64,000 nucleotides of DNA, from contig CAJFUN010000009.1 of assembly GCA_904420205.1 (NCBI GenBank), positions 1 to 64,000 of the forward strand, given 5' to 3'. This document shows positions 20,341-31,911 of the stretch, in pieces. This DNA is from Candidatus Parachristensenella avicola. Lineage in GTDB: Bacteria > Bacillota > Clostridia > Christensenellales > UMGS416. The notes under the pieces are model-generated. The model was not told the origin of the DNA. It was given only the letters and a program-made list of their open reading frames with translations, and did no database searches. A program made the position numbers and the translations under genes. Position 1 is the first letter of the stretch. Each line of letters opens with the position of its first letter.

Positions 20341-20937
20341 TCAGGACAGCGCCTTTCGCACAATCTCATAGAGTATGGGCTTCATGTTGTCAATGGTATC
20401 CGGCTTGCCCTCGATGATGGAAGAGTAGCAAGTGGCTCCGCACATTTCCGTGATTACAAAGATGAGCTTAAAGACATCCTCGGGCGAGTGCCGGCTGGCA
20501 AGGGGGCTTGCCTCCAGATCACGGCAAAGAGCCGCCCATAGCGGGTCGGTGCGAGCCGTGAGCTGCTGAGCCACCATGGGCCAGGAAAAGTTACGCTCAA
20601 TAAGCCGAAGGCAGAGTTTATTCCGTTTGAAGTACTCAATTACATAGTCCATCAGAAGAATGACGTTCTCCGTAAAGTTTCCGGTGTCATGCTGCCGCAC
20701 ATACCGGTAAGCCTCGTCCAGCACGCGCGTGCTGATGCGCAGAATTAGCTCCTGCAGCAGCTGCGTCTTATCCTGAAAATATAGGTAAAAAGTACCTTTA
20801 GCGACGTTCGCCTGGCGGACGATTTCATCCACCGTGGTTTTGGCTACGCCTTTTTGTGTGAATAGTGAGAAGGCAGCGCTTAGCAGGCTTTGCTTTTTTT
20901 CTTCCTTTTGCTGAGCCCGTATGGACAATCGCGTCAT
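20341..20937 (-). CDS. TetR-family repressor of the divergent MMPL operon
   Basis: A 198-residue dimeric repressor. Residues 14-60 are a TetR_N helix-turn-helix (LLSAAFSLFTQKGVAKTTVDEI, then NVAKGTFYLYFQDKTQLL). Residues 61-198 are the helical ligand-binding domain, of a type common in Clostridia regulators next to MMPL exporters. The ATG has AAGGA seven bases upstream. It diverges from the MMPL gene, with four matching TGAC...GTCA palindromes in the 200-base gap, which predicts repression of both directions. The inducer is unknown and probably hydrophobic. Confidence 0.92.
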   Translation of the reverse strand: MTRLSIRAQQKEEKKQSLLSAAFSLFTQKGVAKTTVDEIVRQANVAKGTFYLYFQDKTQLLQELILRISTRVLDEAYRYVRQHDTGNFTENVILLMDYVIEYFKRNKLCLRLIERNFSWPMVAQQLTARTDPLWAALCRDLEASPLASRHSPEDVFKLIFVITEMCGATCYSSIIEGKPDTIDNMKPILYEIVRKALS

Positions 20938-21014: not shown

Positions 21015-21027
21015 TGACCAAAAGTCA
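21015..21027. promoter_or_regulatory. TetR operator box 1
   Basis: TGACCAAAAGTCA, a 13-base palindrome with TGAC/GTCA arms. First of four similar sites; nearest the TetR gene. Confidence 0.65.
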
Positions 21028-21042
21028 TAAAAAATATTAGTA

Positions 21043-21055
21043 TGACCAATAGTCA
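21043..21055. promoter_or_regulatory. TetR operator box 2
   Basis: TGACCAATAGTCA, same arms and spacing as box 1, 28 bases further right, centre to centre. Confidence 0.65.
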
Positions 21056-21063
21056 GAAATTGA

Positions 21064-21092
21064 TTGACTATTAGTCATGCGAGATTTATACT
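21064..21092 (+). promoter_or_regulatory. promoter of the MMPL-YhgE operon
   Basis: TTGACT (21064-21069) and TATACT (21087-21092) are 17 bases apart. Operator box 3 lies directly on the -35. Confidence 0.75.
21065..21077. promoter_or_regulatory. TetR operator box 3
   Basis: TGACTATTAGTCA, a perfect 6-1-6 palindrome overlapping the -35 of the MMPL promoter. This is the best-placed site for repression. Confidence 0.72.
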
Positions 21093-21101
21093 ACCAAATG
21101 A

Positions 21102-21114
21102 TGACCGATGGTCA
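21102..21114. promoter_or_regulatory. TetR operator box 4
   Basis: TGACCGATGGTCA, a 5-3-5 palindrome just downstream of the expected transcription start of the MMPL operon. Confidence 0.65.
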
Positions 21115-21139: not shown

Positions 21140-23215
21140 ATGGAAAAATTCGCGCGCGCCGTCGTCCAGAAGCGGAAGTTGATCCTGCTAATTGCAGTAT
21201 TGCTATTGATTCCGGCGGCTTTTGGCGCGGCAGGCACCTATATCAACTATGATATCCTGACGTATTTGCCGCCGGAACTGGACTCCATGGTGGGCGAAAG
21301 CTATCTGGAGGACGACTTTAACATGGCGAGCACGGCCATGATTACCGTGGAGCACATGACGACGGCAGATCTTTTGAACATGAAAGACGAAATCGCCCAG
21401 GTGCCGGGCGTGGAATCGGTCATATGGACCAGCGATATGCTGGATGTGAGCGTGCCGCGTCAGATGCTGCCAGAGGATATCCAGCGCTTCTTTTTCAATG
21501 ACGATGGCGCAACCATGATGATAGTAAAGTTTTCCGATATCAGCGCCAGCCCCTCTACCATGAAGGCGCTGGAGCAGATTAAAGGCTTGCTGAGAGCGGA
21601 TTGCTTCATCGGCGGCATGGCGGCCATTCTTCAGGATACCAAGGCGCTGGTGGATAAAGAGATGCCCTTCTATATCCTCTGCGCGGTGGGATGCTCGCTT
21701 ATCATTCTTTTTTTAAGCCTGAAAGAAACGGTTGTGCCGCTGATTTTTATGCTGGGCATTTTTTTCCCCATCGCCTACAACTTCGGCAGCAATATTTTCT
21801 TGGGCCAGATATCCTATATTACCGAAGCGCTGGCGACGGTGCTGCAATTAGGGGTGACCATGGATTTCTCCATTTTCCTGCTTCACCGGTTTGAGGAGGA
21901 AAAGAAGACGGCATCGCAGGAGGAGGCTATGGTACGGGCTATTGTCAACACCTTTAGCTCCATCACCGGTAGCTCGCTGACCACGATCGCAGGCTTCCTT
22001 GCCATGTGCACCATGTCCTTGACATTGGGCCGGGATATCGGCCTTGTGATGGCCAAAGGCGTGCTGCTGGGTGTGCTTTGTACCATAACCGTGCTGCCGG
22101 CCCTCATCATGACCTTCCAAGGCGCGATCGAGCGGCATACCCACCGCACGCTGATCCCCAGGCTCAGTCGCATGTCTCGTTTTGTCGCTCGTCATTATGC
22201 GCCGATCTTGGCCGTGTTCCTGGTGCTGTTTGTCCCCTTTGCCGTGGCTCAAAGCAAGACGGACGTCTATTATACGCTCTTTGACAGCCTGCCCCAGGAT
22301 ATGACCAGCATTGTGGGAACCAACCGGCTGAAAGCGGATTTCAATATGACGACCACCCATTTCATCATGGTGGATGAGTCGCTGAGCAACGAAACGCTGA
22401 GAAGTCTTTCTAATGAAATTGAATCGGTGGATGGAATCAACCAGGTACTCAGCTATGAGAAATTTCTGGGCGGCGGAATTCCGGAGCAGATGATTCCCAA
22501 GGAAATGGAGGACATTTTTCATGCCGGGGGCCATCGAATGATTTTGGCGAATTCCAGCTATGAGAGCGGAACAACGCTGCAAAACGAGCAGCTGGAGGCT
22601 ATGAATGAAATTGTGAAACGGTATGACTCCCAGGGGGTAATTAGCGGCGAAGGCGCGATGACCCGGGATCTTATCCAGGTAGCGGATACCGATTTCCGTA
22701 ACGTCAATCTAGCGTCAATCTTGGCGGTATTTATCATCGTCGCGCTGGTATTTCGTTCCGGATCCATTCCCGTGCTGCTGGTGGGAATCATTGAAAGCGC
22801 CATTATGATCAATATGGGCATTCCCTATTTTTCCGGGACGACACTGCCCTTCGTTGCCAGCATTGTGGTTGGCACCATCCAATTGGGGGCTACCGTGGAC
22901 TACGCTATCTTAATGACGAACCGCTTCCGTGAGGAGCTCATACATGGACAACCGGTACAGGAAGCAGCGCGGATTGCTATGGAGCAGTGCAGCCAAAGCA
23001 TACTAACCAGCGGCCTTACCTTCTTCGTTGCGACCGCTAGCGTAGCCGCGATCTCCCGCATGGAACTGATCAGCAGCCTTTGCCTGCTCATCAGCCGGGG
23101 TGCGCTGATCTCCATGGCGGTTATCCTGCTGGTATTGCCGGCTCTTCTTATCGTAACGGCGCCGGTCATCCGCAAAACGACATACCATTGGTTGGTAAAA
23201 AAGGAGCGTGCGTAA
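21140..23215 (+). CDS. MMPL/RND-family transporter
   Basis: A 691-residue membrane protein with two RND halves. Each has one N-terminal helix (residues 13-30 and about 355-372), an extracellular domain of 120-150 residues, then five helices, giving about 12 membrane segments. The first half shows the LGVTMDFSIFLLHRFEEE element and the second the LGATVDYAILMTNRFREE element, the conserved Asp-containing helix-4 motif of MmpL proteins. It probably exports lipids or hydrophobic compounds using proton motive force. The start is ATG 21140; GTG 21134 in the same frame is also possible because the AAGGAG site sits between usual spacings. It is followed one base after its stop by the secreted partner gene. 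Confidence 0.92.
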   Translation: MEKFARAVVQKRKLILLIAVLLLIPAAFGAAGTYINYDILTYLPPELDSMVGESYLEDDFNMASTAMITVEHMTTADLLNMKDEIAQVPGVESVIWTSDMLDVSVPRQMLPEDIQRFFFNDDGATMMIVKFSDISASPSTMKALEQIKGLLRADCFIGGMAAILQDTKALVDKEMPFYILCAVGCSLIILFLSLKETVVPLIFMLGIFFPIAYNFGSNIFLGQISYITEALATVLQLGVTMDFSIFLLHRFEEEKKTASQEEAMVRAIVNTFSSITGSSLTTIAGFLAMCTMSLTLGRDIGLVMAKGVLLGVLCTITVLPALIMTFQGAIERHTHRTLIPRLSRMSRFVARHYAPILAVFLVLFVPFAVAQSKTDVYYTLFDSLPQDMTSIVGTNRLKADFNMTTTHFIMVDESLSNETLRSLSNEIESVDGINQVLSYEKFLGGGIPEQMIPKEMEDIFHAGGHRMILANSSYESGTTLQNEQLEAMNEIVKRYDSQGVISGEGAMTRDLIQVADTDFRNVNLASILAVFIIVALVFRSGSIPVLLVGIIESAIMINMGIPYFSGTTLPFVASIVVGTIQLGATVDYAILMTNRFREELIHGQPVQEAARIAMEQCSQSILTSGLTFFVATASVAAISRMELISSLCLLISRGALISMAVILLVLPALLIVTAPVIRKTTYHWLVKKERA

Positions 23216-23216
23216 A

Positions 23217-25304
23217 ATGAAAAGATGCAAGAAATGGCTGGCTTGCCTAATAAGCCTGGCGATGGCATCCATCGGGGTGACGCCGGCTTATGCAGCCGGT
23301 CAGGAAGGCATTAGCAAGGATGAAAACGTATTTGTCATCCTTCAGCCTGACGGTTCGGTGAAAGAACAGATTGTCAGTAACTGGCTGCACAGCGATCAGG
23401 GGCTTTCCGAGGTAGAGGATGCAAGCCGCCTGACAGACATTGAAAATCTCAAGGGGCAGCTTGAGCCGGAGCGCCATGGTGACAGCCTGCGCTGGAATAC
23501 CGAGGAAAAGGATGTTTATTATCAGGGGCACACCGAGCAGACGCCTCCCGTAACGGCGGCAATTACATATGCGCTGGATGGAGAAGCGATGCCATGCCAG
23601 GCCCTTATCGGCAAGAGCGGTCATGTAAAGATAACCATCACATTGACAAACCATGAGAAATCCGAACGAGAAATCAACGGTCAGCTGCGCGATATCTACA
23701 CTCCGTTCTTCACCATCATTGCGGCTGACCTGCCAACAGCGCATTTTAGCAACATAATAGCAGAGAACGGCACGGTGCAGACGGATGCCTCAAACCAGTT
23801 GGCCTGTTTTCTGGCTATGCCTGGAATGCGGGCCAACTTCGACGGGCTATTGACGGATAAACTGGGCGGGTTGACGGATGCGATGCTGGATACGGTAACG
23901 CTGGAGGCGGATGTGAACGATTTCCAAATGCCGATGATCATGATGGCTACAGCCACCAGCATGGAGGAATTGACCGAAACAGAGACCTCGCTCCCCGATT
24001 TGGAAGGGCGTTTGGATGAATTGAAGGACGCAACAGGGGACCTGCAGGATGGCGCTGAAGCGCTGGCGGAGGCTGCATCCATGCTAAAGGATAAGATGGC
24101 GCAGCTGAATCAAAGCTATAATGCCTTTGATCGGGGCATTATTTCGGCGCTTGCGGGCGCAAAAGCACTGCAGCAAGGCGCGCTGCAGCTGGATGATGGG
24201 GTTAGGACCTTGGCAGAGGGTACGCAGCAGCTGCAATCAGGCAGCAGTACGCTGGCCCAAATGCTGAATGACGAGCTGGTTCCCGGCCTGACCCAAGCGG
24301 CGGGACAGCAGCAGCGCCTTGAACAGAAGATGGCGGCAATCCGACAGGCGCTGGACAGCGTTAGCCTGCCGGATATGGATGCGATGAAAGATGAGCTGGC
24401 GGCAGGCGTCGGTTCCGTATTCGACCAAGCTGCGGCTGGGGCGGCACAAGGTGCTGCAGGCGCCGCCCTTAACGGATATAGCCAAGTACTTCAAGGCGTA
24501 TTGGCAGGTTCGGGCCTGGATGCGGATACGCAGGCCGACATTCTGGCTGCGGTAAACGCGTCGCTGAATCAAAATAGCATAACCGCCGAACAGATTGCCG
24601 GCAGCGTAACCGGCCAAATGGGCGAGGCCAAGCAGCAGGCGGTTCTCCAATCGCTCAAGGCGCTGGAGGGTATGGATCTTTCCAACCTAGAGGCGATAAT
24701 GGGGCAGCTCGGCGAGCTTTCCGGCGAGGCGCAAAGCATGATGGACAGCGTTAAAACGCTAACTCAGGCCTTATATAACGAGGAAGATCCCGCCGATCCC
24801 CATACCGTGGTGGGTGCGGCCGCAACCATTGCCTCGGGAGCCGCGCAGGTGAATGGCGGCATGGATGCGCTGAAGAAAGGCGCAGATCGCCTGGAGCGCG
24901 GGACCCAGGAGCTGGCGGACGGCCTTACGGCCGTACGCAGCGCCAGTGCGGCGATCAAGGAGGCTATCGGGCAATTCCTGGAAGGCGCAGGATCGCTTCA
25001 GCAGGGAGCGGGCAGCCTGCACAGCGGCATGGATACCTATGCGCAGGAGGGGATAGGCGAACTGATCGATCGCATGGAAAACCTGAATTTGGACGGTATC
25101 AGCGAAGTGATGACGGCCATGCAGGATCAGGCCAACGGCTACGGCAGCTATAGCGGCGGCCCAACGGGCATAAAATCCACGGTCAAGTTTGTCATGAAGG
25201 TGGAAGCGCCTCAGGTGGAAGCGGCGGACGAAAATCCAAAGGCTGAGCAGGCGCCTGAAGCGCCTGCCTCCTTCTGGGACCGTGTCAAGGGCTTATTCGA
25301 CTAG
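23217..25304 (+). CDS. secreted YhgE/Pip-like coiled-coil protein, partner of the MMPL transporter
   Basis: A 695-residue exported protein. Residues 1-26 are a signal peptide ending in an AYA-A-type site. Residues about 60-250 form a beta-rich domain with an ADVNDFQMPMIMMATA element. Residues 260-600 are long helices with repeated xLxxGxxxLxxG units (LQQGALQLDDGVRTL, LERGTQELADGLTAV, LQQGAGSLHSGM) like the periplasmic part of YhgE/Pip proteins. The C-terminus has no membrane helix. AAGGAG is shared with the end of the MMPL gene. It is probably the extracellular component of the export system controlled by the TetR regulator. The exact role is inferred. Confidence 0.8.
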   Translation: MKRCKKWLACLISLAMASIGVTPAYAAGQEGISKDENVFVILQPDGSVKEQIVSNWLHSDQGLSEVEDASRLTDIENLKGQLEPERHGDSLRWNTEEKDVYYQGHTEQTPPVTAAITYALDGEAMPCQALIGKSGHVKITITLTNHEKSEREINGQLRDIYTPFFTIIAADLPTAHFSNIIAENGTVQTDASNQLACFLAMPGMRANFDGLLTDKLGGLTDAMLDTVTLEADVNDFQMPMIMMATATSMEELTETETSLPDLEGRLDELKDATGDLQDGAEALAEAASMLKDKMAQLNQSYNAFDRGIISALAGAKALQQGALQLDDGVRTLAEGTQQLQSGSSTLAQMLNDELVPGLTQAAGQQQRLEQKMAAIRQALDSVSLPDMDAMKDELAAGVGSVFDQAAAGAAQGAAGAALNGYSQVLQGVLAGSGLDADTQADILAAVNASLNQNSITAEQIAGSVTGQMGEAKQQAVLQSLKALEGMDLSNLEAIMGQLGELSGEAQSMMDSVKTLTQALYNEEDPADPHTVVGAAATIASGAAQVNGGMDALKKGADRLERGTQELADGLTAVRSASAAIKEAIGQFLEGAGSLQQGAGSLHSGMDTYAQEGIGELIDRMENLNLDGISEVMTAMQDQANGYGSYSGGPTGIKSTVKFVMKVEAPQVEAADENPKAEQAPEAPASFWDRVKGLFD

Positions 25305-26742: not shown

Positions 26743-27471
26743 TTATTTCAGCTGCTCGCATAGCGCTTGTAGCTCCTGGCATAGCCGGGCGGCGGCCTCG
26801 TCGGTAGCGGCTTGGCCCAGGGCCGGACTGGCATGATAGCGGGGATCCTCACCGGCTACGCCTTCGGGACGGACGGCAGGATCCGCGGGAAGCGCGCCCA
26901 TATCCACGAGTTCCGGATAAAAATGCATCATGATCGAAGTTTCATTGGCTGCGGCGTGATCGTTTTGAAAGCCAATCGCGTCGGCCTTGGACCAAGCGCA
27001 TCGCAGAAAAAGGTCATACTTCCGCTCCCATTCCGGGGCATGCGCCATAAATGCCTTGGTGGAAGGGCCGTGACCATGAGCCACGACAATGCGAAAGCCG
27101 GCGCGGCGAAGCTGGGCCAGGATGGACTCCAAGAGAATGGCAAAGGTTTCATCGGCAACATGATAGGCCGATCCAGGCATCGGCCGAGGGGCTTCGCCTT
27201 GCGGGCGGCCCCAGAAATCCATCCCGATGTAGGTATAGCCGTCTTTCGTATAGGTCAGATCGGGCCCGACAAAGAGCATGGGCAGCACCACGCCGCCCAC
27301 CCTGCGGGCCAGTTGGGCGAACAGGCCGCGGCTTTGCAGGCCGTCAGAGCCCAAGGGCAGATGCGGTCCATGCCACTCCAGCGTCCCCAGAGGAAGATAA
27401 GCGATGGGCGCTTGCGCCAAGCGGCGGAGAAAGGCGTCAGGGGTGAGTTCTTCATAAAAGACCGTGTCCAT
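26743..27471 (-). CDS. creatininase-family amidohydrolase
   Basis: A 242-residue metal-dependent amidohydrolase of the creatininase/MftE/ArfB family. Metal-site motifs are [19 protein letters not shown] (residues 26-44, with Glu, His and Asp ligands), HGHGPS and [10 protein letters not shown] (the downstream Glu). The start is ATG 27471, with AAAGGAGTG upstream. Family members open cyclic amides such as creatinine or formamide-type intermediates, or process peptides such as mycofactocin. No neighbour tells which. It is divergent from the damaged ABC ATPase gene. Confidence 0.88.
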
Positions 27472-27497
27472 GCGTTCACTCCTTTCTATCATTTTTT

Positions 27498-27503
27498 ATT
27501 ATA
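27498..27503 (-). promoter_or_regulatory. -10 of the creatininase-family gene
   Basis: Perfect TATAAT on the minus strand about 27 bases before the start codon. The -35 region is weak. Confidence 0.45.
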
Positions 27504-27589
27504 CTCCATTAAAGGACAAAAAGCGCGGGCATTTCCCAGCTTTCATAGGATTGTTTATGATTTTATCGCATTCTCGTCACAAAAAATCC

Positions 27590-28050
<461 letters not shown>

Positions 28051-28054
<4 letters not shown>

Positions 28055-29235
28055 TCCAGTCCTTGAAAATGGCGCTTAAATCCATCGCCGGCAACAAGTT
28101 CCGCGCCTTTCTTACGATGCTGGGCATCATCATCGGCGTGATGGCACTGGTCATCCTGGTCAGCCTGGTCAACGGCGCGACAGGGACGGTGACCGATACG
28201 ATTTCCAGCCTCGGCAGCAACCTGTTAACCGTCACGATTAGCGACGACAAAGGGTCGCCGATCACCCTGGATACCCTAGACGAATGGATGCAGCAGGACG
28301 GTATTGGTCTGATCGCGCCCAACGGGCAAACCAGCGTTACGGGGAAATACGACGATCAAAGCGACACCATACAGGTTTATGGCACCACGCCGGCTTATGA
28401 ATCCATTAACGGGCTATCCATTCTGCTGGGAAGGTTTATTAAATCCTCCGATGTGGATAACCATACAAACATCTGCGTCATCAATGAAACGACGGCAGAG
28501 GAGCTGATCGGCTATACCGACTGCCTGGGCGAGGAGATTTCTCTGAACGGCATGAAGTTTACGGTTGTCGGTTTACTAGAGGATGACGACCAGTCCCTGA
28601 CCGCAGCCTTTGGCAGCGGCTCGATGGTGGCCTATATCCCCTATACGACGCTGATGCGGCTTTCGCCGACCGTATCTTCGGATATCGCCAGCTTCACCGT
28701 CAGCGCAGAGACGGATATGGCAACGGCGGAAGCCCAGATGACGGCGCTGCTGCTCGAACGGTTTGAAGCCGATACGGATGCCTTCACCGTCTCTTCCCTG
28801 GATGCGCTGGAGGATACGATGAGCAGCGTTACGTCCATTTTAACCATTCTGCTGGGCGGCATTGCCGCCATATCGCTGATCGTTGGCGGGATCGGTATCA
28901 TGAATATTATGCTAGTCACCGTAACCGAACGAACCCGGGAAATCGGTATCCGCAAAGCCATCGGTGCGGGGCGGGGCGCGATCCTGCAGCAATTCTTGCT
29001 GGAATCGGTGGTGCTCTGCATGCTGGGATGCGCGGTTGGCGTATTTCTCTCCTGGATTGTACTGCGCGTTATTTCGGTGGTGGTGTCCAGCCTGAGCATG
29101 ACCTTCAGCCTGGAGTGGAATGTCGTATGGATTGCGGTCGGATTTTGCTTTTTCATCGGCGTTGTGTTCGGTCTGTATCCGGCCAATAAGGCTGCGAAGA
29201 TGGCGCCCATCGACGCGCTGCATTATGGCGGCTAA
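28051..29235 (+). CDS. MacB/FtsX-type ABC transporter permease
   Basis: A complete 394-residue permease: N-terminal helix (about residues 17-42), a large extracytoplasmic MacB_PCD domain (45-260), then three C-terminal helices forming the FtsX domain. The coupling segment [22 protein letters not shown], which docks on the ATPase, and the final [19 protein letters not shown] are intact. It works in peptide or antibiotic export or mechanotransmission with an ATPase and an adaptor. Its cognate ATPase gene directly upstream is truncated, so it is either inactive or uses an ATPase from elsewhere. Confidence 0.92.
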
Positions 29236-29250: not shown

Positions 29251-31911
29251 ATGAAAAAAAGCAAAGCGCGGCCCGCCGCCAAGGCGGACCGGATAAAGGC
29301 AGCTGTCCTGATCGCTCTTATGGTTCTTTTTACGGTGCTGCTCGCCGCGGATCTAGTCAACCTGGCGCTGCCGTCGGTCGCAGGCAATGTGGAGATTCCG
29401 TCATCCGCCATGGAACCTAGACGTTCTGAAAGCGCTATAGGCGAAGCATTAGAGCAGGCCGATGGAGCCAATGACCGCGATATGCCCTCGCAGCCCAACG
29501 GCGAAGAAGCGCCCGAGATGAGGGAAATGGGCGAGCGGGGCGCTTTGGGCACGGTTGCAACCCTCCGAAGCGCATTGAAGGAGGCCTGGCTTCCGATTCT
29601 CCTTGTTTGCTTAGCCGGCGATGGCGTTTGCCTGTTCCTGCTGCTGCGTATCCGTCGTAGAAGCGGCAAAGCACAGCAGGCGGTTATGGCCGCGACGCAG
29701 GAGGAAGGAAAGCGGCGGAGCGATAAGGGGGCTTGGGTGCTGCCCGCGTGCCTGATCCTGGCGATAGCCGTAGTGGTAGCGATGCTGCCCTCGGGCACGA
29801 CCAGCGCCAATTCGGTGACGGTTCATGAAACGGTGGTGGCTGAAACTGCACAGACCGGCGATCTTTCGGCCGGAATATCCGGAGCAGGGACGCTGGAAAG
29901 CGACGAAGCTGTCGCAATTGAGATACCGGAGGCCGTCTCTATTCAGGCTTATTATGTGAGCAATGGCGATACAGTGAAGGCCGGCGACCCGCTGGTTGCT
30001 GTGGATTCAACTTCCGTGGCGTCGGCGATTGCCGAGCTCCAAACCGTGATGGATGAGCTGGACGAAGCGCTGCAGGAAGAGGCCGAAGCATCTGCCGAGG
30101 ATACGATTTCCGCTACGGCCGAAGGACGGGTGAAGGCCATCTATGCGGGCGAGGGGGATCGTGTCTGGGATGTGATATCCGACCAGGGCGCACTGATGCT
30201 CTTATCGCTGGACGGTCTGATGGCTGTTGATATCGAAGATGACGAGACGCTGGCTATGGGCGATACCGTACAGGTGCTACGGCCGGACGGGACGGCGTTA
30301 TCTGGCCGGATTGCCCAAGTGGCGAACGGCAAGGCGACTGTCACGGTATCGGATGAGGATGCGGCCTATGGAGAACGCGTCACCGTAACCGACGGGCAGG
30401 GTGCCACGCTGGGCGAAGGTGAACTCTATATTCATAGCGAACTAAAGGTCACAGGTTATTACGGGACGGTGTCAGAGATCGAGGTATCGCTGGAAGAGAC
30501 GGTAGAAAAAGGCGATGCGCTCATTACGCTAAACGACACTGGACACACTTCGACATATGAGGCGCTGCTTGCCCGCCGCCATGAGCTTGAGGAGCAGATG
30601 GAAGATTTGTTCCGGTTGTATGAGGACGGCGTGCTTTACGCAGAATCGGAGGGGGTAGCCTCGGGTATCCCGGAGGATGCACCCATGGCCGATGCCGAAG
30701 ACGGAGGAACGGATGCGGCCTTATCTTCAGGCGCACAGAATAGAAGCCTGGTTACGGCGGTATATTCCAGCGTTACAGAGCTTAAAAGGCTGCTGAGCAC
30801 CTTGCCGGGCGAGGACGGCGGCAGCGTGGATACCTATGCTGCGATCATTGACGGGGTTTTGGACAATGAGCTGGAATTGTCCCTGTCGGCGCTGCCGGTG
30901 ACTGTGCCGGATCTGACCGACCTCTCATCCCTGGCAGAGATCGAAATGACGGAAACACTCCATTATTCTTATGAGGAGACAACGCCCTTGTATTGCTACC
31001 GGGATGGGCAGTGGACGACCCTGGCCTTCTCGGAGCTTCAGGTAGGCGACCGGCTCATTTTGGCATATCCGGCTGGCGGAAGCCCGGCAGCGGATACGCC
31101 GGTGTGGATTGTGTGCGAACCGGGTGGAACGGATACGCCCCAGGAGCCGGAGGAACCCACCGTACCGTCCACACCGGAGGATCCGGAGACATCCACCAAG
31201 CCGTCGGAGCCGGAGGAGCCCACTACACCGACAGCGCCGAATGAAGCCGGCGGTGCGCAGGAGCCTACCATGCCTACTCTGCCGTCAGTAAGCCAGCAGC
31301 GCCCCGATATGGCACAGAACACAACCGCTTATGCGGATGGCGCCCTTGCCGGACAGGCGCAGCAGGAGGCTGCTCTTTACGAAACATATAGCGTCGGCCA
31401 ACAGCAGGTTTTATCCATTACTCCACAGGAAACCGCCTATATCACCATCAGCGTGGATGAACTTGATATTCTGGCGCTCGAACCGGGGCAGACAGCAGCG
31501 GTTACTTTGGACGCGATTCCGGGACAGTCCTTCACAGGGACGGTTACCGAAATCAGCGCTGCGGGGACCAATGAAGGCGGTAATACCAAATTCGGCGTGA
31601 AAATATCGCTGCCCCGGACTGATCAGATGCTGGCCGGGATGAATGCTTCGGTTACGGTTGTGACCGCGACGAACAGCGGGGTGGTCACCATCCCAGCCGC
31701 TGCGCTGGTGGAAGATCGGGGAAAGACCTATGTATATACCACCTATGATGAAAAAACGGATAGCCTGGGCGGGATGACCGAGGTGGAAACCGGAATGTCC
31801 GACGGAGAACGTGTGGAGATCCGTTCAGGCCTTCAAGCGGGAGATGCTTATTACTACCGCTATGCGGATACCGTTACCTATCATTTCCTTCCAGGCGCAG
31901 TCAGCCGGTAG
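29251..31911 (+). CDS. large HlyD/MacA-type adaptor with extra N-terminal membrane helices
   Basis: An 886-residue protein. Hydrophobic segments at about residues 17-43, 112-134 and 160-183 suggest three membrane passes before the exported part. From about residue 195 there is a MacA-like barrel-sandwich/lipoyl domain split in two, with a helical hairpin near 440-500. Residues 630-700 are a Pro/Glu/Thr-rich linker. The C-terminal beta-barrel domain (about 730-830) ends with the membrane-proximal part. GGAAGGAGGAGG precedes the ATG. MacA proteins are usually 380-400 residues with one helix, so this is unusual. It belongs with the FtsX permease 15 bases upstream. Confidence 0.85.
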   Translation: MKKSKARPAAKADRIKAAVLIALMVLFTVLLAADLVNLALPSVAGNVEIPSSAMEPRRSESAIGEALEQADGANDRDMPSQPNGEEAPEMREMGERGALGTVATLRSALKEAWLPILLVCLAGDGVCLFLLLRIRRRSGKAQQAVMAATQEEGKRRSDKGAWVLPACLILAIAVVVAMLPSGTTSANSVTVHETVVAETAQTGDLSAGISGAGTLESDEAVAIEIPEAVSIQAYYVSNGDTVKAGDPLVAVDSTSVASAIAELQTVMDELDEALQEEAEASAEDTISATAEGRVKAIYAGEGDRVWDVISDQGALMLLSLDGLMAVDIEDDETLAMGDTVQVLRPDGTALSGRIAQVANGKATVTVSDEDAAYGERVTVTDGQGATLGEGELYIHSELKVTGYYGTVSEIEVSLEETVEKGDALITLNDTGHTSTYEALLARRHELEEQMEDLFRLYEDGVLYAESEGVASGIPEDAPMADAEDGGTDAALSSGAQNRSLVTAVYSSVTELKRLLSTLPGEDGGSVDTYAAIIDGVLDNELELSLSALPVTVPDLTDLSSLAEIEMTETLHYSYEETTPLYCYRDGQWTTLAFSELQVGDRLILAYPAGGSPAADTPVWIVCEPGGTDTPQEPEEPTVPSTPEDPETSTKPSEPEEPTTPTAPNEAGGAQEPTMPTLPSVSQQRPDMAQNTTAYADGALAGQAQQEAALYETYSVGQQQVLSITPQETAYITISVDELDILALEPGQTAAVTLDAIPGQSFTGTVTEISAAGTNEGGNTKFGVKISLPRTDQMLAGMNASVTVVTATNSGVVTIPAAALVEDRGKTYVYTTYDEKTDSLGGMTEVETGMSDGERVEIRSGLQAGDAYYYRYADTVTYHFLPGAVSR

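Follow-up and report, generated by a model that had tools for sequence, protein, structure and literature searches.

What does a secreted protein contribute when its gene begins a single base after that of a membrane pump? The question is raised by a locus of Candidatus Parachristensenella avicola (Bacillota; Clostridia; Christensenellales), which lies in the first 64,000 nucleotides of contig CAJFUN010000009.1 (assembly GCA_904420205.1), the whole stretch of DNA that was analysed and is referred to here as the window. A gene for an MMPL/RND transporter (the pump) is followed there by one for a secreted protein (the partner), and a TetR-family regulator is encoded upstream. RND pumps of single-membrane bacteria have no outer-membrane channel to reach and, to our knowledge, little is known of what completes them outside. 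We report that the pairing of pump and partner is real and widespread, occurring in many gut bacteria, and propose as the most probable reading that the locus encodes a TetR-controlled, proton-driven exporter, in which the pump works with a dedicated outer subunit.

The stop codon of the pump gene (TAA, 23213-23215) and the start codon of the partner gene (ATG, 23217) are separated by one base, as a preliminary description of the sequence had noted. The open reading frame of the pump starts at GTG 21134 or ATG 21140 and ends at 23215, and AGGAG lies upstream of the pump and partner gene starts alike.

Pairing of pump and partner

Relatives of the pump were collected with a motif-and-tblastn scan of GTDB (r220) genomes using the pump alignment. 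The best 80 of at least 586 relatives form a named set, with genera including Faecalibacterium, Gemmiger, Clostridium, Erysipelothrix, Blautia, Roseburia, Butyrivibrio, Ruminococcus, and Holdemania. Five of the 80 loci were left out because fewer than 700 bases follow the pump. The partner stands beside the pump in 73 of the 75 judgeable loci: 65 have it downstream, on the pump's strand, and five have it upstream, while in three (L105, L145, L164) it is fused with the pump in a single reading frame. This co-occurrence bears out the earlier suggestion that the two proteins form a unit. This set was found with pump motifs only; the motifs and the pump profile used below both derive from an alignment of 14 partner-adjacent pumps, and the pump surveys consequently favour pumps of that kind.

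Two further surveys covered the order and the phylum. Across 200 genomes of the window's order, a profile of the partner's beta domain (A1) found 28 strong places in 24 genomes and one weak match elsewhere. When the pump profile was applied to the same genomes, 25 places scored at least 770 bits, exactly those adjoining a partner (25/25); the next pump scores 589 bits, and no partner match was found near it or near any lower-scoring pump. Phylum-wide, the partner is present in 36 of 299 sampled genomes, and a pump adjoins 31 of the 35 places that lie in genomes other than that of the window. The remaining places are L194, L197, L198, and L199, the last three with scores of 49 to 67 bits. The G086 match (20.9 bits) stands outside these counts, and L055 lies on a 13.6 kb contig. 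Some species may occur both in the named set (GTDB r220) and in the other sets (GTDB 232), so that the counts from the two are not independent of each other. Chance adjacency was considered as an explanation and is rejected by the order-wide, named-set, and phylum-wide surveys.

The fused proteins provide a second line of evidence. Beta-domain matches under 40 bits, or of 150 columns or shorter, were dropped, which leaves out L196 and L199; the tree comprises 89 of 135 domains, and a mixed alignment with partner-only rows (A4) was set aside because its summary pointed to misalignment. The three fusions stand in different parts of this tree, which also fits a single origin. Both L145 and L164 have an extra hydrophobic segment between pump and beta domain, which would place the partner part outside the membrane, and L105 has a lipobox-like IAGC between the two. 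In a structure model of a natural fusion both parts are folded, with predicted local distance difference test scores (pLDDT) of 70-90 for 798 of 1199 residues and of at least 90 for 154. The structural aligner VIA-align (VIA) returned RND-type rows alone for this model, covering its residues 1-661 at most.

The pump itself is a clear member of its family. Two stretches match Pfam MMPL (PF03176), with 187.8 bits against a cut-off of 20.5 and a whole-protein E of 3.3e-55. Acidic-aromatic pairs in transmembrane helices 4 and 10 are the proton relay in MmpL3, and DF/DY pairs are found in the pump at residues 242-243 and 587-588. D242, D587, and Y588 are present in 76/76 pumps, while position 243 holds Y in 67 of them and F in the other nine. 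Two NCBIfam models stay under their curated cut-offs (HAE3, TIGR00921, 159 bits against 351.9; ActII/MmpL, TIGR00833, 191.4 bits against 874.7). The nearest solved sequences are MmpL4 (1.1e-36) and MmpL5, and the same two rank first when a structure model of a natural-fusion fragment is searched with Foldseek; in VIA, MmpL5 is tied with AcrB-type pumps on the fusion model (Z 43.9 / 43.8).

Several observations concern pumps more broadly. The window's pump shares 71% identity with its counterpart in Gemmiger An120 and 62% with the one in Faecalibacterium; its best match in seven genomes of its own family, the sole strong one among the seven, is 41% identical. Horizontal transfer of the gene is possible, since the pump is nearer to Gemmiger and Faecalibacterium than to these same-family genomes. 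Elsewhere, MMPL frames of 1539 to 2193 residues were encountered (L061:4367-9589, G047:C21, G067:C43, G098:C205). Those of L061, G067, and G047 hold ~1040 to 1470 extra residues between the MMPL halves, in the second outer loop, and Pfam lists MMPL/ACR alone at E <= 0.01 for the L061 protein. At L062:4269-8268, an MMPL gene overlaps the gene of a 591-residue lipoprotein-like protein, which has no Pfam match at E <= 0.01 in a genome with no A1 match; this protein is possibly a different kind of outer partner.

The gap between the TetR and pump genes bears on the probable regulation of the locus (Table 1). All four matches to TGAC-N5-GTCA in the window fall in this gap, against 0.39 expected, and none of 100 shuffles contained four or more. 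Genome-wide, TGACYNNNRGTCA occurs at nine sites, four of them at this locus and the other five single on their contigs. The palindromes are probable operators of the TetR protein. The promoter-like site is no evidence by itself, because four sites of its type were found in the stretch and 4.2 are expected. Among pump loci, 103 of 137 have a TetR-type helix-turn-helix match near the module, or 103 of 132 once five with too little upstream DNA are subtracted.

Table 1. Features of the pump-partner locus, with positions in the window
Feature	Position	Strand	Basis
TetR-family regulator, 198 aa (amino acids)	20341..20937	-	Divergent from pump gene; Pfam TetR_N 7.2e-17
Four TGAC-N5-GTCA palindromes, probable TetR operators	21015, 21043, 21065, 21102 (21015..21114)	.	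Pattern count
Promoter-like site TTGACT-17-TATACT	21064..21092	+	Consensus scan 10/12; overlaps third palindrome
MMPL/RND transporter, 691 aa	21140..23215	+	Pfam MMPL x2; DF/DY pairs; MmpL4/MmpL5 likeness
Secreted partner, 695 aa	23217..25304	+	Open reading frame, heptads, signal sequence, predicted structure
Partner signal sequence, aa 1-26	23217..23295	+	AYA-A cleavage site, by eye
Partner beta domain, aa 33-246, mu-homology-like in model	23313..23954	+	AlphaFold2, Foldseek, VIA; conserved family A1
Helical hairpin with LxxG heptads, aa 256-621	23982..25079	+	Inserted before last strand; middle of low confidence
C-terminal strand, aa 653-662, completing beta domain	25173..25202	+	AlphaFold2 model; V656, F658 conservation
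C-terminal amphipathic tail SFWDRVKGLFD	25269..25301	+	Tail motif count

Architecture of the partner

A single hydrophobic stretch, residues 8-26 with AYA-A at its end, was found in the partner; the best later 19-residue mean is 1.23, and no hydrophobic segment was found after the signal sequence. The absence of a C-terminal membrane domain, pointed out in the preliminary description, is thereby confirmed. No Pfam family matches the partner above its cut-off. The leucine-glycine heptads of TIGR03057 do so in NCBIfam terms, with 27.2 bits against a curated cut-off of 18.6, and six LxxG pairs seven residues apart lie between residues 251 and 650, as many as in none of 2000 shuffles. An AlphaFold2 model was built from 40 sequences without templates (mean pLDDT 71; predicted template modelling score, pTM, 0.49). 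It comprises a confident beta domain (pLDDT 70-96 per ten-residue block), a helix at 256-381, a middle part of low confidence, a return helix at 528-621, and a last strand at 653-662 in which V656 and F658 are nearly invariant (alignment A3). The helical hairpin is inserted before that last strand, and its well-modelled part measures ~70 residues per helix, near 10 nm.

Many partners end in a recurrent motif, [FLM][WFLTM]-x-[KRE]-[ILVFM]-x-x-[LFIWV]. It is found in the last 26 residues of 38 of 131 complete partners, compared with a mean of 1.4 and at most 6 in shuffled tails (200 rounds), a contrast that is somewhat flattered because the motif was drawn up after the tails were seen. Lipobox and tail were compared as alternative anchors in 63 partners: none has both, nine have the lipobox, 12 the tail, and 42 neither, which is not significant (Fisher p 0.19, with crude detectors).

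The conserved part of the partner is its beta domain, of which ten examples align as a family of ~190-215 residues (A1). Five loci of one bacterial family (L060, L074, L077, L078, L079) encode partners without the hairpin. These proteins have 286-322 residues and 0 to 2 LxxG motifs, retain the beta domain and C-terminal strand, and carry the tail motif in four of the five cases. Two other loci of the same family (L073, L084) have long partners with heptads. Since the five hairpin-less loci form one nested group in the tree (100/99), the hairpin has probably been lost in them. The partner is best described as a beta-domain subunit with an optional stalk, because these five loci keep the domain without the hairpin. 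The preliminary description had presented the partner as a helical protein extending the pump outwards. The model does contain a long hairpin, and the idea of a pump extended outwards is plausible. What defines the protein, however, is its conserved beta domain and not the helical part.

Distant beta-domain proteins of ~66 bits were also observed at L197:7102-9069 and L198:5923-7872. They have a second, apparently C-terminal hydrophobic segment; no MMPL gene neighbours them, and a small secreted protein adjoins.

The fold of the beta domain is likely to resemble the two-lobed mu-homology type, as predicted by the model. Sequence comparison gave no lead: four hairpin-less partners had no Pfam match beyond chance at E <= 10, and a search of the beta domain against the PDB returned nothing credible (best E 0.066). 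When the partner model was compared with the PDB in Foldseek, 47 of the top 50 rows were mu-homology domains or complexes holding one (AP1 to AP4 mu, COPI; best E 2.8e-8). VIA placed domains of this kind in 49 of its top 50 rows, including FCHO1, SGIP1, and Syp1, the best with Z 11.5 and with 191 residues of a 245-residue chain aligned at a root-mean-square deviation of 3.6 A. By way of yardstick, models without a clear match typically reach a best Z of 7-8, or 14 if mostly helical. The aligned range of the partner runs from residue 27 to 664, beyond the last strand, and the one coiled-coil row among the 50 is Rad50 (Z 10.5). Nineteen strands are listed in the beta domain of the window partner and 19 in that of the fusion model. 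Against the match stand the Foldseek template modelling scores by target, which are 0.27-0.44 in those rows, and its dependence on one predicted model. PF00928 was not listed at E <= 10 for the six partners with complete lists; it also had no match in 14 genomes, a weak result as none of 14 prokaryotic controls matched. MmpS, YhgE/EsaA chains, and Ig-like folds fell outside the top 50 rows of Foldseek and VIA, which excludes none of them.

A more far-reaching interpretation of this likeness can be put forward, although we think it improbable. In clathrin and COPI coats, cargo signals are recognised by the mu-homology fold, and Y-x-x-phi ligands bind its peptide groove; W-x-x-phi and W-x-W ligands are named in the PDB titles of the mu-homology rows. 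A widespread relative of the fold on the outside of Bacillota might serve RND and ABC exporters as a platform for docking or for reading cargo, with aromatic C-terminal tails (F-W-D-R-V-K-G-L-F) in its groove. The partner differs from a cytosolic adaptor or coat subunit in having a signal sequence and a pump as its neighbour. If the likeness reflects common descent, the mu-homology domain would gain a prokaryotic relative, and the finding would bear on the origin of a hallmark domain of eukaryotic vesicle coats. A narrow literature search, run without hyphenated or Greek spellings of mu-homology, found no title or abstract on the pair or on a bacterial mu-homology domain.

A proposed exporter and its alternatives

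Taken together, pairing, fusions, and architecture make it fairly probable that the pump and partner act as one exporter under TetR control. The MMPL protein would be a proton-driven membrane pump, in keeping with its family and both DF/DY pairs, and the partner its dedicated outer subunit, as suggested by near-obligate pairing, fusions, signal sequence, and predicted fold. We infer the docking, stoichiometry, and substrate from these features. The beta domain is probably docked on the outer porter domains of the pump, with the antiparallel hairpin pointing from the membrane into the wall. The cargo is probably lipid-like or amphipathic and would be taken from the membrane by the pump; the same compound is probably also sensed by the TetR protein, which would then be released. 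The beta domain would receive the cargo or, by way of the hairpin, direct it into the wall. In this way the partner might do in trans what the MmpS beta domain and the MmpL5 coiled coil do in mycobacteria.

Some observations weigh against this proposal. Two of the 75 judgeable pumps (L142, L163) have no partner, and 29 of 132 loci have no TetR match nearby. One observation in its favour is qualified: pump and partner distances give r 0.82 for 126 pairs, where 500 permutations reach 0.11 at most, and the two share a nearest neighbour in 72 of the 126, but the correlation is confounded by common descent, which alone would give much of it. The natural-fusion model has a pTM of 0.53 and carries no interface information. 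Moreover, five partners exist without the hairpin, and a conduit through the hairpin is consequently not general.

This last point also bears on a stronger form of the proposal, which we hold to be possible but doubtful. In it, three partners seated on a trimeric pump would join their hairpins into a closed tube of alpha helices, a counterpart in trans of the MmpL5 conduit. According to PMC12501195, MmpL5 and MmpS5 form a 3:3 complex, and the coiled coil of MmpL5, a 196-residue insertion in its own PD2, is needed for efflux and predicted to be a 13 nm tube. The window's pump is closest to MmpL4/5, and the confident part of the hairpin measures near 10 nm. The hairpin-less partners speak against the tube, as does the range of length after the N domain, from 69 (L079) to 925 residues (L140), leaving aside L196 and L056 with broken frames and the weak L199.

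The partner is also found beside a different type of transporter. In the window's genome a second copy of the partner, 608 residues long, is encoded on another contig (L052:7254-9080, G000:C51), where genes for an ABC ATPase and an FtsX-like permease precede it; the order is the same at L054, and L080 is a more distant set. At L058, genes for an ABC ATPase and an FtsX-like permease come after those of pump and partner; the permease contains 18 LxxG motifs itself and extends past the end of the DNA that was read. L052, L054, and L080 all fall inside a 40-row clade (100/100) that is otherwise mostly pump-associated, with L080 beside a pump-associated row (98/80). A single origin of the ABC-associated partners may fit this tree. 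Based on gene order and tree, a partner-type subunit seems to serve two unrelated engines, RND and ABC, by a mechanism that we infer.

A separate ABC-type locus was observed in the window itself. The ATPase frame at 27464-28054 (+) has no Walker A part and matches Pfam ABC_tran from profile position 55 of 137, and looks cut off at its start; it is followed by a MacB-like permease (28051-29235) and a HlyD-like protein (29251-31911).

The presence of the beta domain behind ABC transporters at L052, L054, and L080 can also be taken to mean that the partner is no subunit at all. It may be a secreted or lipid-anchored client or regulator, either exported or folded by the pump or sensing envelope stress, and merely co-regulated with it. 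Such a role would suit the many partners that look freely secreted, as well as L055, L194, L197, L198, and the weak L199, where no pump is seen near the beta domain. We nevertheless consider it unlikely, given that the domain is tied to the pump in three fusions from different parts of the tree, and that close relatives of the pump almost always have the partner beside them. As for the preliminary description's view that the partner is a split YhgE/Pip-type protein, in which the heptad part does the work and the pump stands in for the membrane domain that is lacking, it is very improbable and is rejected as a family claim: the TIGR03057 heptads exceed their cut-off, but the partner's matches at E <= 1 include no other YhgE model, N- or C-terminal (the C-terminal membrane domain, TIGR03062, has no match in its genome either), and five loci lack the heptad part whereas the beta domain is conserved.

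The proposed exporter makes the partner, which belongs to no named Pfam family, a testable candidate for the outer completion of single-membrane RND pumps. It is also of wider significance as an outer subunit found with two unrelated engines.

Comparison with known systems

The locus shares single features with several known systems. With YhgE/Pip it has the TIGR03057 heptads alone in common, and the partner differs in lacking the YhgE terminal models and the membrane domain. With eukaryotic mu-homology domains (AP complexes, COPI delta, muniscins) the partner's beta domain shares a predicted fold likeness, whereas the protein is bacterial and secreted, has a hairpin before the last strand, and gives no PF00928 sequence match. 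FtsX/MacB-type ABC transporters have the partner domain behind their permeases at L052, L054, and L080, while the engine at the window locus is an RND pump.

The nearest analogue found is MmpS/MmpL4-5. PF05423, which we take to be the MmpS sequence family, was not listed at E <= 10 for the six partners with complete lists (four of them hairpin-less), though filters drop most weak matches, and was not among the best 25 matches of L052 and L100. The pump, at 691 residues, is shorter than MmpL4/5 chains (~970), and its sequence contains no heptad region. In PMC12501195, MmpS5 is described as a membrane protein of one helix and an Ig-like domain, and MmpS5L5 as controlled by a repressor, which resembles the TetR arrangement of the window locus. 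As in mycobacterial MmpS4/5-MmpL4/5, an MMPL pump, a separate gene for a beta-domain partner, and a coiled coil outside the membrane appear to be combined here; in contrast to MmpS/MmpL5, beta domain and hairpin are united in a single secreted protein.

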